Source of the DNA: Candidatus Saccharimonadota bacterium
GTDB lineage: Bacteria; Patescibacteriota; Saccharimonadia; Saccharimonadales; UBA4665
NCBI GenBank assembly: GCA_029288425.1
Contig: JARIHD010000073.1
Span: forward strand, 1 to 45,300
Direction of reading: 5' to 3'
Length of the DNA stretch: 45,300 bases
The notes beneath the pieces are model-generated. The model worked only from the letters and a program-made list of their open reading frames with translations, made no database searches and had not been told where the DNA came from. This document shows, piece by piece, positions 1-45,300 of the stretch; position 1 is the stretch's first letter; each line of letters starts with the position of its first letter. The position numbers and the translations under genes are program-made.

Positions 1-572
<572 letters not shown>

Positions 573-10910: not shown

Positions 10911-11798
10911 GTGCTGACGCGCCCGATCCTCCGTTGGCATGGCGGTAAGTGGAAACTCGCGCCGTGGATCATCTCGCACTTTCCTGAGCATCGCGTCTAC
11001 GTGGAACCGTTCGGTGGGGCAGCATCGGTGCTATTGCGAAAGGACCGATCTTACGCAGAGGTCTACAACGATCTCGACGGCGACGTGGTTACGCTCTTTC
11101 AGGTTCTACGGGATCCATTAAAAGCGGCTCGCCTGAAAGAGCTAATCGAGCTGACTCCCTACGCTCGCGCTGAATATGTCGCCTCGCGCGTGGAATGCGA
11201 CGATCCACTTGAGCAAGCGCGGCGTCTGCTAGTTCGTTCGTTTATGGGTTTCGCGTCAAACGGTCACAATATCGCCACAAAGACCGGGTTTCGGGGGAAC
11301 TCCAACCGCTCAGGCACCACCCCGGCTCACGACTGGCGAAACTATGCGGCCGCACTTGAGGCGTTCACGAAGCGATTGCAGGGCGTCGTTGTCGAGAACC
11401 GGAACGCAACCGAAGTCATGCTCCAACATGACGGCCTTGAAACACTGCATTACGTAGACCCGCCGTACCTGCCTGAGACGCGCTCAAGCAAAAGCCGCCC
11501 AGAAGGGATGTACACCCACGAAATGACCGACGAAGACCACGCGCACCTTATCGGCGTGCTTCAAAGCCTTTCGGGAATGGTGGTGCTGTCCGGCTATGCC
11601 AGTGGCTTGTACGACGAATCGTTGCTCCATTGGCGGCGCGTGGAGTTAGCGACGTTTGGCGATGGCGCTACGCCGCGAACTGAGGTGCTGTGGATTAACC
11701 CTTCTGCGGCGGACCGCCTGCGAATTGGACAGCGTGAACTAGCCGGACTGTCCGTCTCCCAACCCTTAGACATGACGCTTAATGGAGGTCAACCGTAA
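10911..11798 (+). CDS. DNA N6-adenine methyltransferase (D12/Dam class)
   Basis: 295 residues, GTG start with GGAGG six bases upstream. Motif X RWHGGKWKLA (8-17), AdoMet-binding motif I VEPFGGAASV (31-40), catalytic motif IV DPPY (183-186). This alpha-class layout is that of Dam and phage T4-type enzymes that methylate adenine at N6. No restriction partner is nearby; the next gene is a second methyltransferase. Likely roles are protection of phage DNA or regulation of its promoters. Confidence 0.92.
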   Translation: MLTRPILRWHGGKWKLAPWIISHFPEHRVYVEPFGGAASVLLRKDRSYAEVYNDLDGDVVTLFQVLRDPLKAARLKELIELTPYARAEYVASRVECDDPLEQARRLLVRSFMGFASNGHNIATKTGFRGNSNRSGTTPAHDWRNYAAALEAFTKRLQGVVVENRNATEVMLQHDGLETLHYVDPPYLPETRSSKSRPEGMYTHEMTDEDHAHLIGVLQSLSGMVVLSGYASGLYDESLLHWRRVELATFGDGATPRTEVLWINPSAADRLRIGQRELAGLSVSQPLDMTLNGGQP

Positions 11799-12521
11799 GT
11801 GACGCCGTATTACGAGCGCGAAGGAATCACGATTTACCATGCCGATTGTCGCGACGTGTTGCCTGCGCTCGCCTCCGTCGACGTCGTGATTACCGATCCG
11901 CCGTATTCGGAGCACGTCCATTCAAAGTCACGCCGAGGCGCAGATTTAACGGATGGAATCAGCCGCGAACGCTCCCTTGGTTTCGATGCGATTACGCCGG
12001 ATGTAATGCAGTTCGTGTCTGCGGAATTCGCACGTCTCGCGCGGCGGTGGGTGCTCGTCTTCTCCAATGTAGAACTCGCAACGGATTGGCGTCTCGCGCT
12101 CGAGGTTGGAGGGTTGGAATACATCCGTACCGGCGCGTGGGTGAAACTGGACAGCACCCCGCAGTTTACTGGCGACCGTCCGGCGATGGGCTTCGAGACC
12201 GTCACTATCGCCCACTGCAAAGGTCGCAAGAAGTGGAACGGTGGCGGGACGCAGGGTGTGTGGTCGTATCCGATTGTCCTGAATCGTAGCCACAAAGAAC
12301 CGCGACTCCATACAACTCAGAAGCCGCTGGACTTGATGCTTCGTCTAGTCCGGCTATTCACGAACGAAAACGAAACGATTCTGGACCCGTTCTGTGGGTC
12401 CGGTACGACGCTTCGAGCAGCGAAAGACCTTGGGCGCAAGGCTATCGGTATCGAAGCAAATGAAGCCGACTGCGAAACCGCGGCGAAGCGACTAGCCCAA
12501 GGAGTTTTGAGCCTTGCTTGA
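11799..12521 (+). CDS. DNA methyltransferase, beta class (DPPY before FxGxG)
   Basis: 240 residues, GTG directly after the previous stop, GGAGG upstream. Catalytic ITDPPYSEHV (DPPY 33-36) precedes the AdoMet-binding DPFCGSGTT (196-204), the order of beta-class N6-adenine or N4-cytosine enzymes. HTTQKPLDLM before motif I is also typical. The target-recognition region between is short, so specificity cannot be predicted. Tandem with the D12 enzyme, probably co-transcribed. Confidence 0.88.
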   Translation: MTPYYEREGITIYHADCRDVLPALASVDVVITDPPYSEHVHSKSRRGADLTDGISRERSLGFDAITPDVMQFVSAEFARLARRWVLVFSNVELATDWRLALEVGGLEYIRTGAWVKLDSTPQFTGDRPAMGFETVTIAHCKGRKKWNGGGTQGVWSYPIVLNRSHKEPRLHTTQKPLDLMLRLVRLFTNENETILDPFCGSGTTLRAAKDLGRKAIGIEANEADCETAAKRLAQGVLSLA

Positions 12522-18678: not shown

Positions 18679-18845
18679 GTTTCTTCGAGGCGCATCCGTT
18701 GATGGGGACGGTGGGGGCGCTGGTGGTGATGCTCGGGTTGAAATTGTTGTGTGAGCCGCATCCATCAGAAGGGTCGATCAGTCGAGCGGAGGCGGAAGAG
18801 ATCCGGGAGTGGGAAAGGGATCATCCGCCGGGAGGGTTGATTTGA
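18675..18845 (+). CDS. Small membrane protein, 56 aa
   Basis: GTG in a 4-base overlap. One transmembrane segment (LMGTVGALVVMLGLKLL, about 9-25) and an acidic cytoplasmic or periplasmic tail (ISRAEAEEIREWERDH). Overlaps the next TTG start. Unknown function. Confidence 0.58.
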   Translation: MSFFEAHPLMGTVGALVVMLGLKLLCEPHPSEGSISRAEAEEIREWERDHPPGGLI

Positions 18846-19144
18846 ACCGACGATCATTCGTAGGTTTTCTGGGCACGTTGCCGTTTTTCGGGAAAGTGGA
18901 GCCCGCGGCGGCGTCGCTTCCGAAGACCGTACCGACTAAACTGACGGCTCACGCCCGCATCATTCCCAACGAAATCACGCTGCGGCACGCGATGACGATG
19001 ACGACGTGTGGTGTGTCGTTCGCGTGGTTGCATCTCGAGCCTGTGCGGCGGTACCCGCGCTACATTCGGTGTGAATACTGCAAGACGACAACAGAGCAGA
19101 GCGGCAAGAACTGCCGGAACTGCGGGGCTCCGGTCGAATGCTGA
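18842..19144 (+). CDS. Twin-arginine-signal-like zinc-ribbon protein, 100 aa
   Basis: TTG 18842 is preferred because GGGAGG lies six bases upstream and it overlaps the previous stop. The N-terminus MNRRSFVGFLGTLPFFG looks like a Tat signal (RRSF followed by a hydrophobic stretch) with a possible cleavage after AAA. The C-terminus has CEYC and CRNCG, a zinc ribbon. Exported metal protein or, if the signal is fortuitous, a cytosolic ribbon protein. Confidence 0.55.
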   Translation: MNRRSFVGFLGTLPFFGKVEPAAASLPKTVPTKLTAHARIIPNEITLRHAMTMTTCGVSFAWLHLEPVRRYPRYIRCEYCKTTTEQSGKNCRNCGAPVEC

Positions 19145-19356
19145 CCATCCAGATTATCACGCCGCAATTCGTAAAGACCATTACCGTTGCGGAAGTCCCC
19201 GACGAGCAGATCACCTACCGCCCGTGCGCGTACTGCGAAGACAAGCTAGTCCGCGCTCCCCGAAAGACGTGTTCCGACAACTGCCGTAAGCTTGCCTCGT
19301 ATCACGGCATAGATTTAGACGCCGAGTGTCTAGCCATCCAGTTGCGCGTCTCCTGA
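19138..19356 (+). CDS. Zinc-binding protein, 72 aa
   Basis: ATG overlaps the previous gene by seven bases. Beta-rich N-terminus, then CAYCEDKLVRAPRKTCSDNCRKL (about 30-52), a treble-clef-type ribbon common in small phage proteins. Last gene before the terminator, so end of the replication-region transcript. Confidence 0.62.
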   Translation: MLTIQIITPQFVKTITVAEVPDEQITYRPCAYCEDKLVRAPRKTCSDNCRKLASYHGIDLDAECLAIQLRVS

Positions 19357-19421
19357 AAATCCCGCATAACCATCGTGTGATTTAGCCTTTCGAGTTTGGT
19401 TCACTCTTTCTCTCAGGACAT

Positions 19422-19460
19422 AGGGCTGTCTCTGGCGCGCCAGCTAGAGATGGCCCTTTT
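19422..19460 (+). terminator. Intrinsic terminator between replication and virion modules
   Basis: A 12-bp stem (AGGGCTGTCTCT at 19422-19433 pairing with AGAGATGGCCCT at 19446-19457, two G-U pairs) with a 12-base GC-rich loop is followed by TTTT CC TTTT. It ends the rightward early/middle transcript ahead of the virion genes. Confidence 0.85.
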
Positions 19461-19475
19461 CCTTTTGGAGTACAC

Positions 19476-19610
19476 ATGTTGATTCCGTCCCTCACGTCTG
19501 ACGAGCACATTTCACTGCTTGAGCTTTCCGAGATTGAAGAGTTGGAGAAGAAGACCGCGCCGACTGGCGGTGGTGAGACCGTTCTTCCCCTGCGAAAGAA
19601 GGCTCAGTGA
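19476..19610 (+). CDS. Microprotein, 44 aa
   Basis: ATG with TTGGAG upstream, first gene after the terminator. Acidic helix (LLELSEIEELEKK) and a Gly/Pro tail. GTGA overlap with the next gene. Many podoviruses carry such short acidic proteins here; function unknown. Confidence 0.6.
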   Translation: MLIPSLTSDEHISLLELSEIEELEKKTAPTGGGETVLPLRKKAQ

Positions 19611-19765
19611 GCCGAGAACTCACGCCGGACCAGATTGCCGCCGCTCGTGGAAACCTCGCGCTCCAACTCCTGGGATTGCGCGACGTCGAGATTGAAGCCC
19701 TGAAGGGTGAGATTGCCGGGCTGAAACGCCTCCTCGCTGAACTCGAGGCCAAAAAGGAGTCCTGA
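19607..19765 (+). CDS. Coiled-coil microprotein, 52 aa
   Basis: GTG in a 4-base overlap. Almost wholly helical with heptads (LRDVEIEALKGEIAGLKRLL). The stop overlaps the ATG of the fibre-like gene (TGATG). May be a small structural or chaperone coiled coil for that protein (inference). Confidence 0.62.
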   Translation: MSRELTPDQIAAARGNLALQLLGLRDVEIEALKGEIAGLKRLLAELEAKKES

Positions 19766-20991
19766 TGGCGACCGAACGCGATACCCGTATTCCGCATGAC
19801 CTGTCCGGGGGATCACTCGGCAATACCGACCCGAAATGGATCATCGACCAGTATGGTAACGCGCGGTTTGACGGGTCGGTTCGTATCGAAGGGGACCTGA
19901 CCTGCGACGACATCACCATCGACGACATCACGATTGATTCATTGACGTGCGTGACGTTGACAGTGACGGGAAACGCAACGGTCGGCGGGACGCTGGGAGT
20001 GACGGGAGCAATCACGGGATCTTCGACGATTCAAGGGACCGTCGTTACCGGCACTACGAGCGTGGTGGCTCCGCTCGGGGCGTTTGGGACGACACCGGCG
20101 ACGACTGGCACGATCCGCATTCCGAATAATGCTGGCATCTTCGGGCGCAATGCCGCAAATGATGACGACGCGACGTTGCTGTCGTGGACCACTTCAAATG
20201 TAATCCAGCTCGGCGCGTCTTCGGTGAATGCCGGTGTCGACATTGAGGCCACGACAGCGAGCAGCATCGTCTTGAACAACGCCGGATCTGACGTTGACGT
20301 CCGCGTCGAATCCGACACCAACGCCAACCACTTCGTCTCGGATGCGGGCATTTTTTCTGGTGTTGGCGGGTTTGGATTCGGCTCAACTAACGCTGGTAAT
20401 AACGCGTACCTTTCAGTCGATTCTCCCGCTCTTTCGATCCCGACAAATCAGCCATTTGCGCGTACATGGCTGTTCTCCTCAAATGCGGTCACGGTCCCAT
20501 CAGGCACGGCAGCTACTTTTGCAACCCTCGCTATTCGAGAGCCGAACATCACGGCGACCGGAACCGTCAGCGATGCCTATACAGTTTACATTAACGACGC
20601 TCCCACCGAAGGAACCCGCAACGGTGCGCTGTGGGTGGCGTCGGGTGCGGCAAGATTCGACGGGCGCGTGGCAGAAGCCAACGGGGCTGATGTCGCTTCG
20701 GCCAATACCCTGACTCTCGGCAACGACGGCAACACGTTCAACATTACCGGAAACACGCAAATCAATCTGATTACCACGACCGGGTGGGCGGTGGGCAACT
20801 GGGTCACGCTCTGCTTTAAGGGCGGTCCCATCACGGTTGCGAACAATCAAGCGCCTGGAGCGACAACCGCGGCCATTGTCATGGGCAGCAATGGAAGCTA
20901 CGTCGCTGATACGAATTATGTCGCTACATTCGTGCTCACCTCCAACGGTGCTTCACCCGTGTGGCGTTTCGCTGGAGGAACACGGGGATGA
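19765..20991 (+). CDS. Tail-fibre or spike-like structural protein
   Basis: 408 residues. The start resembles virion-associating N-termini (DPKWIIDQYGNARFDGSV); residues about 40-110 are short beta repeats (DDITIDDITIDSLTCVTLTV, GNATVGGTLGVTGAI), typical of beta-helical fibres. A central domain and a C-terminal GNDGNTFNITGNT/ITVANNQ region follow, the kind used for trimer capping and receptor contact. Position before terminase is unusual but occurs in podoviruses. Confidence 0.7.
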   Translation: MATERDTRIPHDLSGGSLGNTDPKWIIDQYGNARFDGSVRIEGDLTCDDITIDDITIDSLTCVTLTVTGNATVGGTLGVTGAITGSSTIQGTVVTGTTSVVAPLGAFGTTPATTGTIRIPNNAGIFGRNAANDDDATLLSWTTSNVIQLGASSVNAGVDIEATTASSIVLNNAGSDVDVRVESDTNANHFVSDAGIFSGVGGFGFGSTNAGNNAYLSVDSPALSIPTNQPFARTWLFSSNAVTVPSGTAATFATLAIREPNITATGTVSDAYTVYINDAPTEGTRNGALWVASGAARFDGRVAEANGADVASANTLTLGNDGNTFNITGNTQINLITTTGWAVGNWVTLCFKGGPITVANNQAPGATTAAIVMGSNGSYVADTNYVATFVLTSNGASPVWRFAGGTRG

Positions 20992-21263
20992 CCTACACCC
21001 AGATTTACGCACTTCGGAATAACAGCAATTTGATCGACCGAACCGCGGTTGCCGTGGCTCATGCCGCTCTTTACTGTCTGGGACAGAACCAACGGGAAGC
21101 GGCAGCAAAACGGGCGATTGAAGATCCCCGCGCCGAAGCCAACCGGGGCTTCATGTGGGCGATTGCGGACAACGGCGACGTTCAAACTCAAGGTGAAAAC
21201 GTCGCGGATTCGGTAATCCAGTTCGTCGTGGATACCTACTATCCGGAGTTTTGGCCGACCTAA
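20988..21263 (+). CDS. Hypothetical protein, 91 aa
   Basis: ATGA overlap with the fibre-like gene. Helical sequence with IYALRNNSNLIDRTAVAVAHAALYC and EAAAKRAIEDP; no signal or zinc motif. Possibly a small virion protein. The stop overlaps the glycosyltransferase start (TAATG). Confidence 0.65.
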   Translation: MTYTQIYALRNNSNLIDRTAVAVAHAALYCLGQNQREAAAKRAIEDPRAEANRGFMWAIADNGDVQTQGENVADSVIQFVVDTYYPEFWPT

Positions 21264-22717
21264 TGGAACTCTGTTATCTGTTGGTCATCGCCTTCATTCT
21301 CTACGGCTCCACCTTACACGGAGAATGTGTGTTCGATGACGTCAACCAAATTGCCAATAACCGGGAAATCCTCTCAGGAAGCTGGAGAGGCGCGTTGTTT
21401 GGAGACTGCTGTCCTCCGACGCTCCGGGAACGACTGCGCTCTCTATTGTTTGGTTGGAGAGGTTTAGTACGGGCATCACTTGCCTTTAACGTCCTGATTT
21501 GGGGACCATCGACCTTCTCTTTTCACGCCGGCAATATCATTCTTCACGCGCTGAATTCATACATCGTCTATGGAATCCTTTGCGCTCTCGGATTCGATTC
21601 GTCTCTAGCGTTACTCGGGGCCTCTCTCTTTGTCGGACACCCTCTGGCAACATCCGCTGTGGGCTATATGTCGTCGCGGGGTGTCCTTCTTTCGTCATTC
21701 TTCGGGTTTCTCGGGGTTCTTTCGGTTCTCGCGGGACTCTCCTTGCTCGCGATTCCATGTTTTCTTCTAGCGTTCGCGTCGAAAGAAGACCTCGCGGTGC
21801 TGCCCATCTCCATTTCAGCGACGGCCTACGTATTGGGATTGAGTTGGTGGGCGATTCCGCTACCGATCCTCGCGGCGCTTCTCTGGTTCAAGCGTCGAGG
21901 AATCCGCGAAATCCTCCGCGGAAACGGCGAAGCGGGAATGACGGCGAGCGGATTCGCGCAGTCCATCGCTCAACCGTGGTATTCCGTCACGGCCTTCACC
22001 GAAACAGTCATCCGTTACCCGTTCTGGTTACTGGGACTCAAGCAGAACGTGGACCCGGACATCGAAATTCCGCGCACCCCGCGTGTCATCACCGCTGTTC
22101 TGATTGCGTCCAGCGTTCTGCTTGCGGTCATTTATTTGTCCGCTCCTTGGAAAATAGGGCTGATCTTCACCGTCTGTTCTCCGATGGTTCTCTACTGGTT
22201 TTTTCCGATGCCCGATCCGATCTTGGAGTACCGCGCGTACTTTTCCCTTCTCGGAGTGGCGATTCTTTCTACGCAAATCCTCGATATTTTGCCGGGATAC
22301 GCAGTGTATGCCTTGATGGTGTGGCTATGGCTGGCTACCGGTTACCGGGCGGCGTCATGGTCCTCCGCATTGTCGCTATGGAAGAGTGCGGTACGAGACG
22401 GCTCCACAAAAGAACGCGTGTTGTTGAACTTGGGGGCGGCGTACCAGTTGAGACAGGAGCACGACAACGCGCAGGAGTGCTTTAACCAGGTTCTCAAGAA
22501 GAACCCTCGAATCGGGCCGGCGTGGACCAATCTCGGGTTGATTGCGATAGCGCGGAACAATCCCGATAAAGCCATCGAGTACTTTACCGCCTCAACAACG
22601 CATTGCCCGCAATTCCTTCATGCGTGGCAGGCGTTGGGTGAGGTTTACCAAAAGGTCAGTCAGCCGGAAAAGGCGCAGGCTTGCTTTCAGCAGGCTCAAC
22701 TACTCGCGAAAGGGTAA
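21263..22717 (+). CDS. TMTC-like membrane glycosyltransferase (GT-C) with C-terminal TPRs
   Basis: 484 residues. About ten hydrophobic segments fill residues 1-370. Features of the TMTC/PMT-type GT-C fold: acidic loop after helix 1 (FDDVNQIANN, 24-33), FHAGNIILHALN (88-98), GHPLATSAVGYMSSRGVLLS (125-144), ASKEDLAVLP (172-181) and LEYRAYFSL (321-329). Residues 384-484 form three TPR units. Such enzymes transfer sugar from a polyprenyl-phosphate carrier to protein on the outer face of the inner membrane. Its place inside the virion operon suggests action on virion proteins or on host surface glycans. Not a standard phage gene. Confidence 0.75.
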   Translation: MELCYLLVIAFILYGSTLHGECVFDDVNQIANNREILSGSWRGALFGDCCPPTLRERLRSLLFGWRGLVRASLAFNVLIWGPSTFSFHAGNIILHALNSYIVYGILCALGFDSSLALLGASLFVGHPLATSAVGYMSSRGVLLSSFFGFLGVLSVLAGLSLLAIPCFLLAFASKEDLAVLPISISATAYVLGLSWWAIPLPILAALLWFKRRGIREILRGNGEAGMTASGFAQSIAQPWYSVTAFTETVIRYPFWLLGLKQNVDPDIEIPRTPRVITAVLIASSVLLAVIYLSAPWKIGLIFTVCSPMVLYWFFPMPDPILEYRAYFSLLGVAILSTQILDILPGYAVYALMVWLWLATGYRAASWSSALSLWKSAVRDGSTKERVLLNLGAAYQLRQEHDNAQECFNQVLKKNPRIGPAWTNLGLIAIARNNPDKAIEYFTASTTHCPQFLHAWQALGEVYQKVSQPEKAQACFQQAQLLAKG

Positions 22718-22720
22718 GCG

Positions 22721-23137
22721 ATGGGTCAGCGTTTAGCATTTACGGGGGGCTCGGAAGACCGACAGTTACCCGTCATTGTTCAGGGAACCACGGCCATCAG
22801 CATTGCCAATAGCGTGGTTTGCACGAAGACGTTGGCCGCGGCAGGTGCGGGCGTGTGCTACGTCGTTACGGGGTTTTCCTTCTCAATGGCGTCTGCCTCG
22901 GCGGCGCTGACGTTGGGAACGGTAGGTTGCTACGTCATTGACGGAGCGTCCGCGGCCACGACGTTCATCTATCGCTCCATCGTCTCGGTGGGAACCACGG
23001 GTTTTGCGCCGATCGAGCGTGAGGGCCTTTACCTGAAGGGCTCTCCCAACACCGCGCTGACCATCGAATTCTCCGGGGCCATCACGAACGCCGCGGAATG
23101 CGTCTCGATTGAATACACAACGCTGAAATCTGCATGA
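22721..23137 (+). CDS. Virion structural-like protein, 138 aa
   Basis: Ala/Thr/Ser-rich beta protein with no signal or membrane segment (the hydrophobic stretches are strand-like, for example AISIANSVVCTKTL). Composition resembles the small decoration-like proteins at 29591 and 40739. ATGA overlap with terminase, so expressed with the packaging genes. Confidence 0.6.
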   Translation: MGQRLAFTGGSEDRQLPVIVQGTTAISIANSVVCTKTLAAAGAGVCYVVTGFSFSMASASAALTLGTVGCYVIDGASAATTFIYRSIVSVGTTGFAPIEREGLYLKGSPNTALTIEFSGAITNAAECVSIEYTTLKSA

Positions 23138-24714
23138 CGAAAGTACTGCCGGGCTTTGGCCCGATGCCCACAGACGAAGAGCTCGAAAACACCCCGTTTT
23201 ACTTCGGGAAGAAAGAGGTGCGCTTTCTTCCCAAGCAATTCGAGACATGTTTCGCGATGGAGCCCGAGATTGCGTCTACAGGTGGGTACGGTTCGGCAAA
23301 GACAAAAGGCGGAATCTTCCGCGCGACTCGTCTATTGACGTGGTATCCCGGCAACAAAGGCATCATCGGGCGTTACGCGTCGACGGATCTTGCCGCAACC
23401 ACTCAGGCTGACTGCTTGGAGTTCTGGACCGAAGCCAACCTTCTCGATGACTTCGTGGAAAAGGGCAAGTACAAGATCCCCACGGCAACGCTGAGATGTG
23501 TCGATCCGGAGTCTCAGGAAATCCTAAAAGGAAAGTACTCCGAGGCGCTGTTTGCTCACGTGGACGACCCCACTCACCTGCACGGTCATCATCTCGGGTT
23601 TGGATGGATTGACGAGGCCAACGAAGCCAAAAAGAAATCGTACGAAAAGCTCATGTCTCGCCTGCGATTGCCGGGATTTGAGCGATTGTATTCTCTCTGG
23701 GTCACGTCCAACACGGACCAGGGTTACGACTGGATCTATGACCACTTCTTCAACCACGAGGAACTGGAAAAGTTAGAGCCACGCGCGAGAAAGGCTCGCC
23801 GGGCGATTCATTCCACGACATACGAGAACCGAAGGAATCTTCCGGAATCCTACATCCGGAACATGGAGAACTCGTACTCGGAGAAAGCGAGACGGATCTA
23901 CCTCGGAGGCTCTTACGAATCCTTCGAGGGTCAGATTTACGAGGATTTTCAAAAGGAAGTCCACGTCTTCAATCTCGCCAAAGCGTTCAAAGACGGCATC
24001 CCTCCTTCGTGGAACCGACTCTTGGCCGTGGACGTTGGCGGTTCGGACCCGTGGGCATGGATCTTTGCTGCGGTTGATCCGTGGGGCAACGTCATCGTCT
24101 ACGACAAGATTTACAGACCGGGCACACTCGTTGCGCCATTCGCCAAAGAAGCCAAACCCAAGATCGGGGAGTATCGGTTTCAGGCGAAAGTCATCGACAA
24201 CGAAAACAAACTCGCTGCTGGTGAGCTGGGTCAGCATGGAATCCGGTTTACCAACGCCAAAAAGCAGAACAAGAACGATTCCATCTTCCGATTATCGGGA
24301 TACCTTCACCCGAATCCGGACCACGCTCACCCGGAATGGCATCCCAAAGCGGGGCTAGGAAATTCTCCAAGGCTCTTCATCGCCGACAACTGCGTGGAAC
24401 TGATCCGCGAGTTGCCCCAGCAGCGTTGGTTGAAAGTCCACGGTGAAGACGGATTCAAGAACGAGCCCGACCCGGCCATTTCGAATCACGCGGTGGATGC
24501 CCTGCTGTACCTGATCCGTGAACTCCCGAGACCGACAGAACTGGAAGTCACGTTCCGCTCAACGCTCTCGCCGGCCTTAGACGCCATGAGCGTGATGATG
24601 CACGAGATTCGTCATAGGGCAAAACAGGAGAACAAGCGCCGGGAATGGAATGCCCGCATGGGATCGGGCGGGCGGTTCTCGGGACGAAGACACATCTTGC
24701 GGGGTGCCGCATGA
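23134..24714 (+). CDS. terL: Terminase large subunit
   Basis: 526 residues. ATPase domain: variant Walker A GGYGSAKTKGG (about 50-60) and Walker B FGWIDEAN (156-163, Asp160/Glu161), with coupling motif VTSNT (190-194). RNase H-like nuclease: Asp300 (AVDVGGSD), Asp355 (VIDNENK) and Asp455 (NHAVDALLYL). The enzyme powers DNA packaging and cuts concatemers. Neighbouring portal confirms identity. ATGA overlap with the next gene. Confidence 0.95.
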   Translation: MTKVLPGFGPMPTDEELENTPFYFGKKEVRFLPKQFETCFAMEPEIASTGGYGSAKTKGGIFRATRLLTWYPGNKGIIGRYASTDLAATTQADCLEFWTEANLLDDFVEKGKYKIPTATLRCVDPESQEILKGKYSEALFAHVDDPTHLHGHHLGFGWIDEANEAKKKSYEKLMSRLRLPGFERLYSLWVTSNTDQGYDWIYDHFFNHEELEKLEPRARKARRAIHSTTYENRRNLPESYIRNMENSYSEKARRIYLGGSYESFEGQIYEDFQKEVHVFNLAKAFKDGIPPSWNRLLAVDVGGSDPWAWIFAAVDPWGNVIVYDKIYRPGTLVAPFAKEAKPKIGEYRFQAKVIDNENKLAAGELGQHGIRFTNAKKQNKNDSIFRLSGYLHPNPDHAHPEWHPKAGLGNSPRLFIADNCVELIRELPQQRWLKVHGEDGFKNEPDPAISNHAVDALLYLIRELPRPTELEVTFRSTLSPALDAMSVMMHEIRHRAKQENKRREWNARMGSGGRFSGRRHILRGAA

Positions 24715-24926
24715 CCGAACATTGGCCCTGCGTGCTCGTGGTGTTTGCTCAACTCGGGATTATTTACGGATTGGTCAATCGCCTGATTAAGCAGTCGGGA
24801 TTGCATCAAATGAATGCCAAGCGGGCGTTCGACCAGATGGTGGAAGAGACGATCGGCTCTCCGACAAGCACCAGGATGGAGAAGCCCGCCAAGATCGTCA
24901 AAGAGTCGTACCGGATAGGAGTGTAG
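24711..24926 (+). CDS. Small membrane-anchored protein between terminase and portal, 71 aa
   Basis: ATGA overlap. N-terminal transmembrane segment (WPCVLVVFAQLGIIYGLV, about 5-22), then a charged tail. Three bases separate it from the portal. Function unknown; small membrane proteins are unusual here. Confidence 0.65.
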   Translation: MTEHWPCVLVVFAQLGIIYGLVNRLIKQSGLHQMNAKRAFDQMVEETIGSPTSTRMEKPAKIVKESYRIGV

Positions 24927-24929
24927 TTC

Positions 24930-27185
24930 GTGGGTATCTTGCAAGGCGCAGTCAACACCGTGAAGGACTTCGTGAGTCCCAAGCGAAAAGCTGCGCACGA
25001 AGAACCCCAGTGGTCCGACAAGCCTTGGGAGGAGAAGCTGTCCGCGCTCTATCAGGAGTACCGCGTCGAAGATCGAGTCTCGAGACTGACGCTCAATCGA
25101 CTCTGGTTCATGACGGCGCTTTACTTTCAGGGCAAGCAAGGGATCACGTGGAACAACTCCACATCTGCGTTTGAGATTTACGAACCTCTTGACGGGCAGG
25201 ACTGGTACGTCGAGAACCAGTTTCGCAAAGACGTATGGGCCAACGTCAAATCGCTGAACTCCGGAGAACTGGAACCCGTAGCGGCACCGTCATCCGAGAA
25301 GCCGTCTGATGTGGCTGCGGCGCGAGTCGCGAATTCCGCTTTAGACGTGATCTATGAAGACGTCGAGTACACGAGACTGAAAACCTCGAAGCATTTGTCC
25401 ATGTGTCTCTATGGAAATGCGTTTGTGTACAACGCGTTCAACGTCTCGAAGGATTACGGGATTTCTTTGATTCCTTCCTATAAGTACGAGCAATCCCAGA
25501 TTGCCGGGGCCGCGATCTGTCCGAATTGCATGATGACCTCCGCAGAGGGAACGCAGGCCTGTCCGGAATGCGGGTCCCCGATGGAGGCGATTCCTCCCGA
25601 AATGATCGAGTCAAAAGTCTTCGATTCGATGGAGGAGCGCCCTCAAGGCCGGAATGTCTCTTTCGTTACGACTCCCTTGGAGATGTATTGCCGGGCGAAG
25701 GTCAAGGGCGGGCTCAAGTATCAGCCGTATCTATTCTGGGTCCGACGTCTCGACCGAAACATCGTGCTCAGCATGAGGCCCGATGCCGATTGCGGCGACG
25801 GGGATAAATCCTCACTCGGTGATGATTTGTCTCAGTACTACATCGACGTCCTTTCGACTTTGGCCGGCGGTCCCTACAGCGGAACGTATCAACTCGCGTC
25901 CCGGTATTACGCGGAAGTCGATTACGCGATGTGCTGGATTCGTCCGGAGATGTTCCGGGGTGATAAGGAACTCTTGGAGAAGTTCCCCAAAGGGGTGAAG
26001 TTCGAAACCTGTAACGGGAAGTTCATTCCTGGCACCGAAGAAAGCCAGTCCATGGACGAGTGCTGGACGCACTACGCGTATTACCCGAACACGTATTCGT
26101 TCTGGGCCGATGGAATGGTGGATTGCCTTCCGATACAGGATCAAATCAACGAGACCAACTCGCTGATGATTCGGTATCTTCGGTACTGCACGATGTCGAA
26201 GAAGATTTTCGACACCGGCATTATTGACCCCGAGACGTTGTCGAACAATCCGGAAGAGGCTTGGATTCCCGCCAATCCTCAACTCGACAAAAAACTATCA
26301 GATGCTGTGTATTCGCTGGATCCCGCGCAATTGTCTCCCGACGTGTCACGATGGAAACAGGACCAACGATTAGCGGGGCAGGACATGAGCGGCGCGTACG
26401 CCGCTTCCGTGGGTCAGTCTACCGGAGCCAACGCGTCCTACTCGAAGCAGGTCTTTGAAGCCGAGAGGGCTCAGGGGCGGTTTGCTCCGATGTACGACTA
26501 CAACCGCCCGGCTCAAGTCGCGTGGGTGCGGCAGTTGTTGACGCTCTTCCGTGATAACGCTTTGGATGAACGCAAAAAGCAGTTCATCGACAACGCCGGT
26601 CAGTGGTCCTTTGAGAAGTTCACTGGCGCGGATCTTGGTCAGGGCTCCTTCGACGTTCGGATTCCGGATAGCGAAACCATCCCAAAATCCCGAGTGGAAA
26701 AGGCGCAGGGCCTTGAAATGTTGGTTCAGTTACAGCCCGTGCTTCCCATGTTGACGCACAAGGAGAAGGTCTACGTCTTTGACTTTATCGGACTGGAACC
26801 TGAAGGAAGCCCGGACAGCTTACAGGCCCAGCGAGCATTTCGGATCATTGAGCGTTTGATCGCAGGCGAGAAGATCACGCCGTTGCCGTTTGTGGACGAC
26901 TTCATGATCCAGGCCACAGTGTTTAAGGAATACCTGGCGGGCGAAGACGGCGACAAGTTGGCACAGGAAAGCCCGGAAGCGTTCACGAATGTGTATTCGT
27001 ATCTGATGACGATGATTCAGATGCAGGCGCAGCAGGGCATGACAATGGGCGCTATGGGATTGGGGCCAACCCCGCCGACTTCGCAGGGAACCCCGCCGAG
27101 TCAGCCAAAACAGGAAATGGCACAAGCGCCAATAGACCAGAAAGTACCGATGCCGCCTCTACCGGCGGGTGTGAGGCAAGGATAA
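24930..27185 (+). CDS. Portal protein with an inserted zinc ribbon
   Basis: 751 residues from GTG 24930. Long helical protein with typical portal traits: start near the vertex clip (WSDKPWEEKLSALYQEYR), internal region QDQINETNSLMIRYLRYCTM (about 400-420) and a C-terminal Pro/Gln/Met-rich tail. Residues 197-214 carry Cys197/Cys200 and Cys211/Cys214 (CPNC...CPEC), a complete zinc ribbon not standard for portals. Assembles as a dodecamer at the capsid vertex. Confidence 0.85.
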   Translation: MGILQGAVNTVKDFVSPKRKAAHEEPQWSDKPWEEKLSALYQEYRVEDRVSRLTLNRLWFMTALYFQGKQGITWNNSTSAFEIYEPLDGQDWYVENQFRKDVWANVKSLNSGELEPVAAPSSEKPSDVAAARVANSALDVIYEDVEYTRLKTSKHLSMCLYGNAFVYNAFNVSKDYGISLIPSYKYEQSQIAGAAICPNCMMTSAEGTQACPECGSPMEAIPPEMIESKVFDSMEERPQGRNVSFVTTPLEMYCRAKVKGGLKYQPYLFWVRRLDRNIVLSMRPDADCGDGDKSSLGDDLSQYYIDVLSTLAGGPYSGTYQLASRYYAEVDYAMCWIRPEMFRGDKELLEKFPKGVKFETCNGKFIPGTEESQSMDECWTHYAYYPNTYSFWADGMVDCLPIQDQINETNSLMIRYLRYCTMSKKIFDTGIIDPETLSNNPEEAWIPANPQLDKKLSDAVYSLDPAQLSPDVSRWKQDQRLAGQDMSGAYAASVGQSTGANASYSKQVFEAERAQGRFAPMYDYNRPAQVAWVRQLLTLFRDNALDERKKQFIDNAGQWSFEKFTGADLGQGSFDVRIPDSETIPKSRVEKAQGLEMLVQLQPVLPMLTHKEKVYVFDFIGLEPEGSPDSLQAQRAFRIIERLIAGEKITPLPFVDDFMIQATVFKEYLAGEDGDKLAQESPEAFTNVYSYLMTMIQMQAQQGMTMGAMGLGPTPPTSQGTPPSQPKQEMAQAPIDQKVPMPPLPAGVRQG

Positions 27186-28349: not shown

Positions 28350-29579
28350 ATGGCAACCGGAACGATTCAGCAAGCCGAAGGTATCCTCAAGGTCACCACC
28401 GGCGAATACACGCGGAACTGGGAAGACTCCGCGATGCTTTACAACCGACTCAACAAAGGGTCGGGCAATGCGCTCTCGGATCGCGGGTTTGAAATCCCGA
28501 CCGAGATTTCTGCGAACTGGAACCACACCTGGATGACCGATGGCGGCGCGTATCCCGCTGGCGGATCGGTGAAGACCATTCGTCCTTCGGTCTACTTCAA
28601 AGAGTACATCCACTCCTTGAGGCTGACGATTCGCGCGATTCGCACCATCAAGGGCGATAAGAGTTCGGTGAAAAACTGGCTCTCGATCAACCTCGACGGG
28701 GCAATGGAAGCCGCCAAAAAGATGTGCAACCGCTACGCCTATGGTACCGGCGACGGCGTGTTGGGCACGGTCTCGGCGGGTGCGTCGTCGACCACGCAGA
28801 CCTTCAACAACGATCAGAATGTCCGCTACTTCGGGAACGGCATGAGTCTGGATTTCTGGGACTCCACGCAATCGGTTCTTCGCGGAACCGCGAGCGTCAC
28901 AAGTTTTCCGATCCCCGGCCAGACCACCATTACCTTGAGTACGTCCGTTTCGACCACAGCGGGCGACGTTGTGACGATTCACGGCGGATCCAATCAGGCC
29001 ATCACGGGAATCAAAGCCATCGTGGACGACACCACCGAAGCCGGCGTGATGTTTCAGTCCACCTCGCGAAACACCTACCCGAACTATCGGGCGCAGGTCA
29101 TCGACGCTGATTCCGCCTCTCTGGATCTGGAAATCCTGACGCAGATGATCGGCGCAAAGATTCAGGTGCAGTACGGCAAGACCAATCGTGACCGCACCGA
29201 ACTCTGGGCATATCCCTCGCAGACGGCCGCGTTCCAGTCGCTCGGCTACAACCTGAAGCGCATCGAAGGTGGTTCCAAGTCGGTAAAGCTCGGCTACACC
29301 TCGTACGAGTTTCAGGGCATGGCCTTCACGGAGGACGTGGACTGCGACAAGGACCGCGTGTACTACCTCGACTTCGACAAATTGGAAAAGTTCGTGGCGC
29401 GCGGCTGGGGATGGATCGACGACGACGGTTCGATTCTCCGGCTGATTCCATCGTCCACTTCGGGGTCGGCGTACGACGCTCAGTGCGAAGGGTACTGGGG
29501 CGCGGACTACAACTTCGGCTCTCCGGATCCTCGCCCGCTCGGCAAGATCATCGACCTCGATGTGCCGACCGGCTACTAG
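28350..29579 (+). CDS. Major capsid protein
   Basis: 409 residues, three bases after the scaffold-like gene. Mixed alpha/beta sequence with an N-terminal arm (QAEGILKVTTGEYTRNWEDS), a spine-helix region and C-terminal beta segments (YEFQGMAFTEDVDCDKDRVY, GWGWIDDDGSILRL), as in HK97-fold capsid proteins of podoviruses. Identification rests on position, length and composition. Confidence 0.82.
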   Translation: MATGTIQQAEGILKVTTGEYTRNWEDSAMLYNRLNKGSGNALSDRGFEIPTEISANWNHTWMTDGGAYPAGGSVKTIRPSVYFKEYIHSLRLTIRAIRTIKGDKSSVKNWLSINLDGAMEAAKKMCNRYAYGTGDGVLGTVSAGASSTTQTFNNDQNVRYFGNGMSLDFWDSTQSVLRGTASVTSFPIPGQTTITLSTSVSTTAGDVVTIHGGSNQAITGIKAIVDDTTEAGVMFQSTSRNTYPNYRAQVIDADSASLDLEILTQMIGAKIQVQYGKTNRDRTELWAYPSQTAAFQSLGYNLKRIEGGSKSVKLGYTSYEFQGMAFTEDVDCDKDRVYYLDFDKLEKFVARGWGWIDDDGSILRLIPSSTSGSAYDAQCEGYWGADYNFGSPDPRPLGKIIDLDVPTGY

Positions 29580-32777: not shown

Positions 32778-34673
32778 ATGGCCGTACGCGACTTACAAAT
32801 TCAGGACGTCAGCGATTTCTTCGGCGTCAACTATCTTGACGACAAGGAGAACCTTCCTCCCAGTGTTTGGTTTGCCGGAACGAACGTGGTGGTCTCCGCA
32901 TCCGGGTCTGCACTAGCGTTACGTTCGCCCTTAACGGTCACCAAAACTATCGGGAATCCCAGTGCCCGGATTTTGTCGATTTTTAATGCCATTTGGTCCG
33001 ATACCGCCACGGTCTTTTTTGACATTCAGGCCGCAGGAACGACCAGCGTAACGACCTATCGTTTTGCGACTCAGTTCGGCATTCCCGCAACTCCCAGTTC
33101 TGTTCGTACAGGACAAGCCGACCATCGCGTGGACCGAATCAACACGAATAACAAGGTCTACAACGTCAACGGTGCGGAAACTTTCCAGTACGTCAACAGC
33201 ACCACGTCTTACCAACTGGGCATTGGAAAGCCTCTCGTTGCGGGAACGACCTCGATTGTTGCAGGCGGTGCGCTCGTGCTCAACGTGGGAGCGACGGCCT
33301 CTTACGCCTACAGAAATGCAGCAACCACCCACGTCGGGCTGTGTTCCGCGGCGTCTTCCAATAGCGGTCCAACCAACGGAGCCAACCAGACCCTGCGTGT
33401 TGCTGTTGTTGCGGCGTCGACAACCGGGATTGATGGGATCGTGTTGTTCCTCTCGAAAGATGGAGAGAGCAACCGCTACCTGAATGTCGACTCCTCGGGA
33501 AACATGCTCGTGTACCCCAACACCACGGGCAATATCGACATCTCGACTGCCTATTTCGTGGACACGAACACTCCGGAAACAGCGTACAACTACCGCCCGC
33601 TGGATTCCGGTACGCAAGTCTCTGCATGGCAGGACCGTTTGTGGATTACCGGATTTGGGGCGGGAACGCTCGGCCCAACGCTGACCTATAGCGGTTATGA
33701 ATCGGTTTACGCCGGCGTTCCCCAGGAGGCGTTTCCTCCGTTGAATGTGGTGACGATTCCCGCAAAAACGGAAGTCTCGCAGACCTCCATCCCCACTCCG
33801 GTGGGATTGCTGATCTTCAGCGACCTGAATGCATATCTGTTGACAGGGAACCCGCAAGACAACGCGGTTGCTCCGTCCAACACACTGGCAGTTACCGCCC
33901 AATTGGATTCGTTGAATTGGAACCTCGGAACGAAGTCACCAAATTCAGTCGTGTCGAGTCCATTCGGGATTATCTGGTTGGATAACAACAAGCGGATTCA
34001 GTTATGGCCGTTTCAGGGGTTGCCGCAGGAAATCGGGCTAGCGTTACGGCCGGACCTCTCGAACATTTTTGGCAGCGGTGCGAATTTGGCTCTGGCCGAA
34101 GCCGTCTGGTATCAGGGAAAAGACGCGGCGTACTACATCCTGACGGCATGTACTTCCGGGTCTGTCAATAACCGTCTGTACATCATCGGCTTTTACACCG
34201 ACCCCGGCACGGGAAATGTAGTGCGTGCCTGTTCGACATCCGACATCTCCGCTTCGTGCATCAATGTTTCGACGCTCACACAGATTGTCGCATCGGGCAA
34301 GGTCTTTATCGGCGGCACCACGGACATTGTTCAGCAAATCTTCGACTTCGATACTCAGGGCTCGGGATTCGGAGCGGGTACCACGTTGAGCTTTGATTTG
34401 ATGGCGGGCAACAACATTGGAAATTACTCCAACCTCCATTCCCTGAGATTTGACAGCAACACCAACGATGTCATGGTTCAGGTATCGAATCCCGATGGAT
34501 CAGACCAGCGAAATGTGATGCTCACTCGGGAAGGAAATACGACCTATAAAGGTCTCGTGAACAAGTACGGCATTCGTCAGATGTTGAGATTTGTCTTTCC
34601 CACAGATGATGCCGTGAAGCGGGATGTGAAGAATTTCCGTCTGGCGTATAGCCAGAAGAAACGAGTGCTCTGA
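32778..34673 (+). CDS. Tail nozzle (tubular protein B)-like protein
   Basis: 631 residues, starting directly after the adaptor. Beta-rich with repeating VYNVNGAETFQYVNSTTSYQ and AWQDRLWITGFG segments, consistent with a propeller/OB-type nozzle protein that forms the short tail tube. The region NVVTIPAKTEVS and YLLTGNPQD recalls podoviral tail proteins by order and composition. C-terminus KNFRLAYSQKKRVL. Length fits the family. Confidence 0.7.
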   Translation: MAVRDLQIQDVSDFFGVNYLDDKENLPPSVWFAGTNVVVSASGSALALRSPLTVTKTIGNPSARILSIFNAIWSDTATVFFDIQAAGTTSVTTYRFATQFGIPATPSSVRTGQADHRVDRINTNNKVYNVNGAETFQYVNSTTSYQLGIGKPLVAGTTSIVAGGALVLNVGATASYAYRNAATTHVGLCSAASSNSGPTNGANQTLRVAVVAASTTGIDGIVLFLSKDGESNRYLNVDSSGNMLVYPNTTGNIDISTAYFVDTNTPETAYNYRPLDSGTQVSAWQDRLWITGFGAGTLGPTLTYSGYESVYAGVPQEAFPPLNVVTIPAKTEVSQTSIPTPVGLLIFSDLNAYLLTGNPQDNAVAPSNTLAVTAQLDSLNWNLGTKSPNSVVSSPFGIIWLDNNKRIQLWPFQGLPQEIGLALRPDLSNIFGSGANLALAEAVWYQGKDAAYYILTACTSGSVNNRLYIIGFYTDPGTGNVVRACSTSDISASCINVSTLTQIVASGKVFIGGTTDIVQQIFDFDTQGSGFGAGTTLSFDLMAGNNIGNYSNLHSLRFDSNTNDVMVQVSNPDGSDQRNVMLTREGNTTYKGLVNKYGIRQMLRFVFPTDDAVKRDVKNFRLAYSQKKRVL

Positions 34674-34975
34674 TGCGGACGTTTATTGGAATTGTGCTGG
34701 CTGTGCTGATTGGGTTGGCGTCGTGCGTCGCCTTCAGTGCCGAGCCTTCACCGGACGATCTGGCGAAGGCTTCGGCTCAACAGTTATGGGGGCCGGCGGG
34801 ATACGCCGCGAAGTATGCGGTCGCCGATGGGCCATGGCTTTACGAGGTCGGTTTCGTGAGTGTGTTCGGGCCTCCCATCGCCGTTGGGCGGGGGACGTCA
34901 TGGAAAGAGGCGTTTGACCAGGCGAACGAAAAAATCAAGCGCAGACCGGCGAGTCCATTTGGCGATGGGGAATGA
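34673..34975 (+). CDS. Exported small protein or lipoprotein in the tail module, 100 aa
   Basis: TGATG overlap with the nozzle gene. N-terminal signal (MRTFIGIVLAVLIGLASC): LASC fits a lipobox with Cys18, and FSA-EP is a possible signal peptidase I site. The mature part is about 80 residues, WLYEVGFVSVFGPP. Could be a lipoprotein blocking superinfection or a spanin-like partner; no partner is visible. ATGA overlap with the next gene. Confidence 0.62.
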   Translation: MRTFIGIVLAVLIGLASCVAFSAEPSPDDLAKASAQQLWGPAGYAAKYAVADGPWLYEVGFVSVFGPPIAVGRGTSWKEAFDQANEKIKRRPASPFGDGE

Positions 34976-42069: not shown

Positions 42070-43068
42070 CTAAGGCAGTCGAATTGTCGCGGGAATCGTC
42101 GTAAAGCTTGCTCCAGTGAACCTCAGTCCAATCGCCGCGCATTGAGATGGGCAGTCGATTATGACTTGCCCTGCCGTGCCACGCCACGCCGTCAATTCGT
42201 CGATGAATCCGACCAGATTCGATTTGCTGGAAAGCGTATGGGAGCGCGTTACGCTTTGCCCATTTTCCCAGACTGCAATAGCGATGGTTTGCGAAGCCGT
42301 GTTGTCATTCGCGATGGCTATCCCGAGCCGCGCGCCATCTCTGTGGTCCGCGAGTAATTGCACAACTCGCCCCGGTAATGACGGGAAGACGGTAGCTTCG
42401 GAAAGTTTGTGGCCGTTTGGCGCGTAAAAGGAGTAAAGGACGTGCGCGTTAATCGCTGAAGAACATGACAGCGTGGCATAGCCTGATGTGAATGCCGCAG
42501 ACCCCGGCGTGGAGTCGATTTGCCATGCACTCGGGCCGAAAGAATACTGCCCGGACAGTATTGATTTTCCGCCAGCGGCCCAATTAAAGGTGCAAGTGCC
42601 TGTGTTTAGAGCGGTAGGCTCCGAATACATCAATGTGGCTCGGTAATAGCTGCCATCGGAAAAGCGACCATCGGCGAACTGAGGAAAAATGTGGTACGTT
42701 CCTCGGCCATCGCCCTGCACTGTGATGATTGTGGTTGATCCGCTGGAGCCTTGCACAATCGTCGGCAGTAGCTTCGCATCCCAGATCGTGCATTGCTGCG
42801 ACGATCCAGAGACAGTGAATTTGCCTACGCCGATGTACAGCGACCCAGGGTAATCAACGACCCCGTTGGCCCCATCTTTGAACAGCGTGGCGAGACATCC
42901 AATTCCAAAATCCAAAAGATACGTACTTCCATTGGAACGCCGGACGACAACAGAGGTCGAAGAGAATCCCGCAGTGGCGAGTATCGTGACGGTTTCCGCG
43001 CTAGCGTTAGCATGGCGTGGCGATGCCAAGGCCAAAACCGCGACCACAATAAAAGACGTAATCCGCAT
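42070..43068 (-). CDS. Secreted beta-sandwich protein, candidate lysogenic-conversion factor
   Basis: 332 residues, minus strand, AAGGGGAG upstream. N-terminal signal peptide (MRITSFIVVAVLALASPRHA, cleavage near ANA-SA). The mature part is beta-rich with Cys pairs, probably disulfides. The last 90 residues (GARLGIAIANDNTASQTIAI; CAAIGLRFTGASFTTIPA) match, from memory, a C-terminal domain frequent in secreted Acidobacteriota proteins (FAIANP...IGLRFN...FTTIP). Likely a surface or exported cargo protein expressed in lysogens. Confidence 0.75.
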   Translation of the reverse strand: MRITSFIVVAVLALASPRHANASAETVTILATAGFSSTSVVVRRSNGSTYLLDFGIGCLATLFKDGANGVVDYPGSLYIGVGKFTVSGSSQQCTIWDAKLLPTIVQGSSGSTTIITVQGDGRGTYHIFPQFADGRFSDGSYYRATLMYSEPTALNTGTCTFNWAAGGKSILSGQYSFGPSAWQIDSTPGSAAFTSGYATLSCSSAINAHVLYSFYAPNGHKLSEATVFPSLPGRVVQLLADHRDGARLGIAIANDNTASQTIAIAVWENGQSVTRSHTLSSKSNLVGFIDELTAWRGTAGQVIIDCPSQCAAIGLRFTGASFTTIPATIRLP

Positions 43069-44795: not shown

Positions 44796-45095
44796 ATGAA
44801 AACCAAAGGAGAAACCGTGAAGAAGACTGCCGAACGACCCGTTGTTGTGACCACTGCCCATCGTGGCGTGTTCTACGGATACGCCAAAGACACGACCGGC
44901 GCGAGCATCGAACTGAAGCGTGCGCGGCTCTGCATCTACTGGACCTCGGACCTGCGCGGGTTCATGGGGCTGGCGTCTCATGGCCCGTCCAGTGGGTGCA
45001 AGATCGGCCCCGCTGTGGACATCGCCGTCCGCGACATCACGTCTGTCGTGGAGTGCACGCCTGAAGCCGCCGCGAAGTGGGACGCCTGCAAGTAA
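44796..45095 (+). CDS. DUF6948-like phage protein, 99 aa
   Basis: AAGGAG is well upstream. Residues about 15-95 (VVVTTAHRGVFYGYAKD; RLCIYWTSDLRGFMGLASHG; SGCKIGPAVDIAVRDITSVVECT) match, from memory, the DUF6948 family of phage proteins. Members are often found beside Gly-Tyr/Asp repeat genes, as here, where the next gene starts 12 bases later. Function is not known. Confidence 0.72.
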   Translation: MKTKGETVKKTAERPVVVTTAHRGVFYGYAKDTTGASIELKRARLCIYWTSDLRGFMGLASHGPSSGCKIGPAVDIAVRDITSVVECTPEAAAKWDACK

Positions 45096-45106
45096 AGGAG
45101 CCGCGC

Positions 45107-45300
45107 ATGGAAGCAGTTCTGGTTAGAGGGGAAATTCCAGGGTGGGCGCTGAAGGGCTCCGGCGACGGCTACGGCGACGGCGACGGCGACGGCTACGGCG
45201 ACGGCTACGGCTACGGCGACGGCGACGGCTACGGCGACGGCGACGGCTACGGCTACGGCGACGGCTACGGCGACGGCGACGGCTACGGCGACGGCTACGG
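45107..45300 (+). CDS. Gly-Tyr/Asp repeat protein, N-terminal part (continues at 1)
   Basis: ATG 45107 with AAAGGAG upstream. Encodes MEAVLVRGEIPGWALKGS and then Gly-Asp/Gly-Tyr dipeptides to the window end. The frame continues into 1-576 when the 98-base overlap is removed (45107-45202 joined to 1). The short VLVRGEIPGWALKGS lead is typical of phage genes with such tracts. Partial only because of where the circle was opened. Confidence 0.8.
   Translation, partial: MEAVLVRGEIPGWALKGSGDGYGDGDGDGYGDGYGYGDGDGYGDGDGYGYGDGYGDGDGYGDGY
45161..45300 (+). repeat. GGC(T/G)AC hexanucleotide tandem array, right part
   Basis: Twenty-three perfect hexamers plus two bases. The last 98 bases (45203-45300) are the terminal redundancy with 1-98. 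Counting the junction once, the array has 40 hexamers. Confidence 0.97.

Follow-up and report, generated by a model that had tools for sequence, protein, structure and literature searches.

A TMTC-like GT-C glycosyltransferase gene in the late gene block of a tailed phage, with fused and split relatives in other phages

What purpose would a phage have for a membrane glycosyltransferase of the TMTC type, encoded among the genes for its head and packaging machinery? TMTC-type enzymes are eukaryotic O-mannosyltransferases, and their bacterial relatives have been little studied. The gene that raises this question lies in a stretch of DNA (the window) that comprises an entire contig of 45,300 bp. 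Both contig ends carry the same repeat, GGCTACGGCGAC, a 12/18-base repeat coding GYGDGD (window 1-264 and 45095-45300), and the contig is therefore probably a circular phage genome opened within this repeat. Binning placed it with a Patescibacteria genome, from which it differs in GC content (56% versus 50% in the bin) and in tetranucleotide make-up (r 0.31-0.44 between contig and bin, 0.93 within the bin). Because of these differences the phage has probably been misbinned, and its assignment to the bin was rejected on composition. The early region of the window holds two adjacent DNA methyltransferase genes (MethyltransfD12 and N6_N4_Mtase; 10911-12518). A tRNA-Leu (gag) gene is found at 1322-1412, overlapped by opposite-strand ORFs, and the ORF at 18842-19141 has a Tat-like start (RRSFVGFL) and a four-cysteine motif at its C-terminus.

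The glycosyltransferase gene is a stop-free ORF as tightly packed as originally predicted, since its ATG and the TAA of the preceding gene have one base in common and three bases separate its stop codon from the ATG of the following one, which is in turn overlapped by the terminase ATG (23134). Its placement between a fibre-like gene and the terminase was right as to order, although one small gene, of 91 and 138 aa respectively, intervenes on each side (Table 1). A gene similar to that for the 138-aa protein also sits before the terminase in L072. Because a strong terminator-like hairpin precedes the block and a consensus scan of 19300-25000 detected no promoter-like site, the simplest reading would be that the late block is transcribed as one unit.

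Table 1. Positions in the window of the late-block genes and of the motifs and repeats encoded by the glycosyltransferase gene.
Feature	Position	Strand	Remarks
Terminator-like hairpin, ahead of late block	19422..19457	+	15 pairs; consensus scan only
Fibre-like virion protein gene, 408 aa	19765..20991	+	First large gene of the block; no family match
91-aa gene	20988..21263	+	Overlaps both neighbours
TMTC-like GT-C glycosyltransferase gene, 484 aa	21263..22717	+	GT-C core residues 1-365, then TPR tail
D25-D26 codons	21335..21340	+	Motif M1, first external loop
R66-G67 codons	21458..21463	+	Motif M2 position, proline missing
R139-G140-V141 codons	21677..21685	+	Motif M3 position, acid missing
K174-E175 codons	21782..21787	+	Motif M4
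V263-D264-P-D266 codons (VDxD)	22049..22060	+	Motif M5 region
E322-Y-R-A-Y326 codons	22226..22240	+	Motif M7
Three TPRs	22412..22708	+	Residues ~384-482; predicted external side
138-aa protein gene	22721..23137	+	3 bases 3' of glycosyltransferase
Terminase large subunit	23134..24714	+	PF04466 1.1e-14; phrog_3717 3e-11
Portal protein	24930..27185	+	phrog_156 6.8e-9
Major head protein	28350..29579	+	phrog_14242 9.3e-26; Microbacterium phage Shocker capsid 1e-9

Compared to Pfam, the membrane part of the protein has no match, PF08409 included, and the TPRs alone are recognised; all three that had been predicted are present, with scores far over the cut-offs (TPR_1 66.2 bits versus 27.8). The family was reached via bacterial intermediates and alignments only, as single-protein scans with the membrane part of the window protein recovered no relative in viral contigs, deposited phages, genome contigs or plasmids. 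The key intermediate is a Patescibacteria protein (L003) with TMTC_DUF1736 and TPRs, which the window protein matches at 1e-9 (BLASTP) and whose membrane part, used as query, finds the window protein at 1.4e-11; the membrane part of the window protein alone matches a bacterial relative at 6e-13. Relatives of the L003 membrane part occur in 70 of 380 Patescibacteria genomes, a scan of GTDB gave 416 confirmed family relatives, and the alignment of the window protein with the bacterial relatives is collinear over the full length. Members of the family alignment match PMT_2, TMTC_DUF1736 and PMT, while two of them give a weak match to Glucos_trans_II. A search with PF08409 in Patescibacteria yielded one true match and much noise, and a profile search of the PDB sequences found nothing.

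The fold was modelled with AlphaFold, at full length (68-row alignment; pLDDT 85.6, pTM 0.88) and, because the best matches of the full model were TPR proteins only, also for the membrane part alone (pLDDT 85.5, pTM 0.89). The best 30 PDB matches of the membrane model are all GT-C glycosyltransferases or complexes containing them, among them STT3/OST, ALG12, AglB, Pmt4, ArnT, DPY19 and Pmt1/2, though the matches are modest (best E 0.004, TM-scores (TMq) 0.31-0.52). The GT-C core on which the original prediction depended is thus recovered in the model, but the ten membrane helices proposed there become 11, followed by the TPRs. This is the count known from TMTCs, in which the active sites and TPRs are located in the ER lumen (PMC7801869). 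In bacteria the equivalent of the ER lumen is the periplasmic or outer face, and by this analogy the active site of the phage enzyme should face the periplasm. The model also aligns over 380 columns with BFVD entry A0A514K2W1 of a Nitrosopumilus spindle-shaped virus (TMq 0.37, E 0.07), possibly an archaeal-virus GT-C protein to judge from this structural match.

Four short signatures had been named for the protein, and all were located in the 484-aa translation: FDD from residue 24, GHP from 125, SKE from 173 and EYR from 322 (1-based, by script). Of the seven TMTC motifs described in PMC7801869, the protein contains M1, that is the acidic pair D25-D26 of the first external loop, M4 (K174 E175) and M7 (E322 Y326), and the catalytic positions kept are D25, D26, R66, H88, H126, R139, K174, E175, E322 and Y326. 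At M2 (..YRP) the window protein reads W65 R66 G67, the proline being found in 61/61 bacterial and 0/7 phage rows of alignment A8, and at M3 (RxD) it reads R139 G140 V141, the last position being D or E in all 61 bacterial rows of A8. As for M5 (DW, in the DUF1736 loop) and M6 (PxxP), the protein has VDPD and a nearby proline, with the alignments placing the loop differently; in alignments A4 and A12 the VDPD is matched by VDHD/LDYD in phage relatives. The closest relatives, one phage protein (L167) and two bacterial ones (L169 and L170), likewise have neither the M3 acid nor the M2 proline, and the two losses are for this reason, on the alignments, a subfamily trait; the same observation led us to drop the M3 loss as a sign of decay. 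Owing to the departures at M2 and M3, the protein is classed from its sequence as a TMTC-like subfamily member and not as TMTC proper. The original prediction would have been refuted by mutated catalytic acidic residues in relatives, and on this the outcome is divided: D25, D26, K174, E175, E322 and Y326 are kept, but P22-like phage relatives have E-D where the window protein has D-D, and the subfamily is without the M3 acid.

The two losses, together with an unusually divergent membrane part (end branch of 3.05 in the tree), could instead mean that the gene encodes a relative without activity or with a non-enzymatic role, for instance a membrane-anchored TPR scaffold or chaperone. This is improbable, as the other motif residues are kept, the bacterial relatives L169 and L170 miss the same positions, and a related phage gene is strongly constrained with its motifs intact. 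Homology, motifs, predicted fold and gene order together identify the gene product as a putative GT-C glycosyltransferase of TMTC architecture.

The phage protein closest in gene position is that of L167 (IMGVR_UViG_3300035698_010675), a fused GT-C and TPR protein which the window protein matches at 5e-20 with 24% identity (BLASTP). Its gene lies 300 bases ahead of the terminase small subunit gene, followed by the large subunit and an SPP1-type portal. Scans for further fused phage copies returned L167 again and no others. Such a recurrence also bears on the notion that the window gene is a host gene introduced by misassembly or binning, which could be entertained since the contig was binned with a Patescibacteria genome and such proteins are common in that phylum. 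The similar position in L167, the overlap and tight spacing with the flanking genes, the phage genes of similar GC on both sides and the unlikeness of the contig to its bin make this a very remote prospect.

A second form of the enzyme was encountered in IMG/VR, where scans with bacterial and then with phage alignments gave 18-19 viral contigs per scan with TMTC-like enzymes. Most carriers are P22-like (in L064, P22 portal 6e-118 and P22 coat 8.5e-40), and in these the enzyme is split into a 137-151-aa protein, consisting of the last membrane helix and the TPRs and keeping W, LW..A and NLG, and a subsequent 344-355-aa GT-C core with H..H, HP, KE, VDHD and EH.MY. The two genes follow that of an exported protein in a cassette located directly after the coat gene, an order seen in L059, L058, L061, L064, L065, L067 and L069/L070; in the more distant L166 the two genes resolved, those for the exported protein and the GT-C core, follow this order as well. 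The exported protein has a hydrophobic, signal-peptide-like start ending A|Q (QTTVPTTTTSTAVTATAQQ in L069 and QVTYMTRTTLSAAV in L064, signal peptides being read by eye), a Thr-rich mature N-terminus and a beta domain matching phage tail-fibre and tail proteins (phrog_1101, 1.4e-7). In L067 (1899-3146) a GIY-YIG-like nuclease sequence shares one open frame with this fibre-like protein. For close pairs, omega is 0.06-0.09 in the GT-C gene, 0.07-0.10 in the coat gene and 0.21-0.30 in the TPR gene. Since the GT-C values are on a par with those of the coat gene, the substitution patterns show the P22-like enzyme gene to be under purifying selection as strong as that on the coat gene, and hence maintained. 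Two cultured P22-like phages, Pseudomonas phage PAE2 and Rhodoferax phage P26218, have no cassette genes between coat and tail genes, and the cassette is on this comparison an accessory insert. Single-sequence tblastn of 50,697 deposited phages with the enzymes of the window, of L059 and L061 and with the bacterial enzyme L003, a search which can miss distant relatives, gave no match.

In a first tree all phage proteins joined weakly (62/62). With L167, L169 and L170 added, the window protein groups with these three (86/75) and the P22-like split proteins form a clade of their own (100/99); a single origin for all phage enzymes is not claimed after this division of the tree into two parts. The branch of the window protein is very long (3.05), and its place is unsure for that reason. 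BLASTP detected no similarity of the window's portal, coat and terminase to those of the P22-like phages, and from such comparisons it is likely that the window phage and the P22-like phages acquired the enzyme independently. Given this split of the phage proteins in the tree and the length of the window branch, the function may differ between the phage groups.

What the sequence comparisons establish is a TMTC architecture with most of the catalytic motifs, a place in a late gene block and the presence of such enzymes in at least one further, unrelated group of phages, where the gene is under strong purifying selection. The interpretation that we favour, at a rough probability of 0.5, is that a TMTC-like GT-C enzyme made late in infection, with an external active site, transfers a sugar from a host donor to Ser/Thr of membrane-crossing proteins and thereby changes the cell surface. 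The enzyme would reside in the cytoplasmic membrane of the host with active site and TPRs outside, and would take one sugar from a polyprenyl-phosphate donor, ascribed to the host as no donor synthase was detected among the window ORFs scanned. That the acceptors would be proteins crossing the membrane is suggested by the luminal active sites of TMTCs and by bacterial protein O-mannosylation, which has been studied on secreted proteins (PMC11727336).

The original prediction had considered capsid or fibre proteins of the phage itself as acceptors, a reading in line with the tight spacing with fibre-like genes and the 22% Ser+Thr of the adjoining virion proteins. Heads and fibres of tailed phages are, however, assembled in the cytoplasm. 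GT-C active sites are situated on the non-cytoplasmic side (PMC7801869) and the neighbours of the glycosyltransferase gene in the window have no visible signal peptide, which makes virion glycosylation quite improbable and exported proteins or the host envelope the likelier acceptors. In the P22-like phages the candidate acceptor would be the product of the gene two positions upstream, the Thr-rich, fibre-like protein that is exported. The window phage may use one of its own exported proteins or a protein of the host envelope as acceptor, and since the neighbours there are without visible signal peptides, the argument from an exported partner is drawn from the other phage group. Exported candidates do occur elsewhere in the window: the ORF at 42073-43068 (-) encodes a Ser/Thr-rich protein of 332 aa with a signal-peptide-like start and no family match, against the strand of nearly all genes, and that at 34673-34975 (+), in the late block, encodes 100 aa that begin with a signal peptide or a lipobox-like sequence (LASC). 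Because at least one unrelated phage group keeps the enzyme beside its coat gene together with an exported Thr-rich protein, the late programme of these viruses probably includes, on this gene order, the glycosylation of proteins on the outer side of the cell membrane.

The most likely benefit would be an altered cell-surface display late in infection, by analogy with P22 GtrABC, which alters the O-antigen and blocks adsorption (PMC10883804); receptors might for example be masked, which would keep progeny from being wasted on debris or on cells already infected and would block superinfection. The same precedent serves a different explanation, namely that the enzyme itself modifies a surface polysaccharide or lipid-linked glycan and so blocks adsorption, like the serotype-converting Gtr glucosyltransferases. 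GT-C enzymes do include glycan modifiers, and the weak Glucos_trans_II matches in two members of the family alignment point the same way. The TPR-bearing architecture and most of the motifs are nevertheless those of TMTC rather than GtrII, no gtrA-like flippase or gtrB-like donor synthase was found among the window ORFs scanned (small ORFs only partly covered), and the partner gene in the P22-like phages encodes an exported protein. A glycan acceptor is for these reasons regarded as doubtful, and a protein acceptor is preferred. More broadly, and tentatively, with confidence somewhat short of even, several tailed-phage lineages may carry an extracytoplasmic protein O-glycosylation module, comprising a fused or split enzyme and an exported acceptor, which would be expressed late and strongly selected within the virion block.

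Set beside known systems, the window protein shares with the eukaryotic TMTC1-4 (PF08409; GT-C/PMT clan) the 11 membrane helices followed by TPRs, the GT-C fold, the DD of the first external loop, KE and ExxxY, but lacks the membrane-part Pfam match, the M2 proline and the M3 acid, has shorter loops and three TPRs, and is encoded by a phage. The bacterial TMTC-like GT-C and TPR proteins (Patescibacteria, Omnitrophota and others) are collinear with it over the whole length and have the same motifs, the closest, L169/L170, sharing also its missing M3 acid and M2 proline; they differ in being located in bacterial genomes and are 25-26% identical to it. Phage L167 has the same fused form directly upstream of terminase genes, although with an SPP1-type portal, an adjacent terminase small subunit and a longer TPR array. 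The split enzymes (L059, L061, L064, L065, L067, L069/L070, L166) likewise lie within a virion gene block, but comprise two genes in inverted order and are set apart by the E-D pair, the exported Thr-rich partner and their separate clade. P22 GtrABC has in common with the window enzyme phage-encoded membrane sugar transfer at the outside of the cell, but is a three-gene O-antigen system, expressed from the prophage, without TPRs and outside the virion block. ArnT, PMT and OST share the fold of the membrane model, while lacking TPRs, acting on other acceptors and giving no sequence match by profile. A full-text literature search, with most subscription journals outside its scope, found nothing on phage TMTC-like enzymes. 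The enzyme family is a known one, and what is new is the phage carrier, the gene position, the split form and the exported partner. The phage copies, with a split two-gene enzyme and a neighbouring candidate acceptor, may offer small and tractable versions for probing the function of bacterial TMTC-like proteins, and they point to a possible, hitherto undescribed route by which phages would alter exported proteins or the surface of the cell at a late stage of infection.
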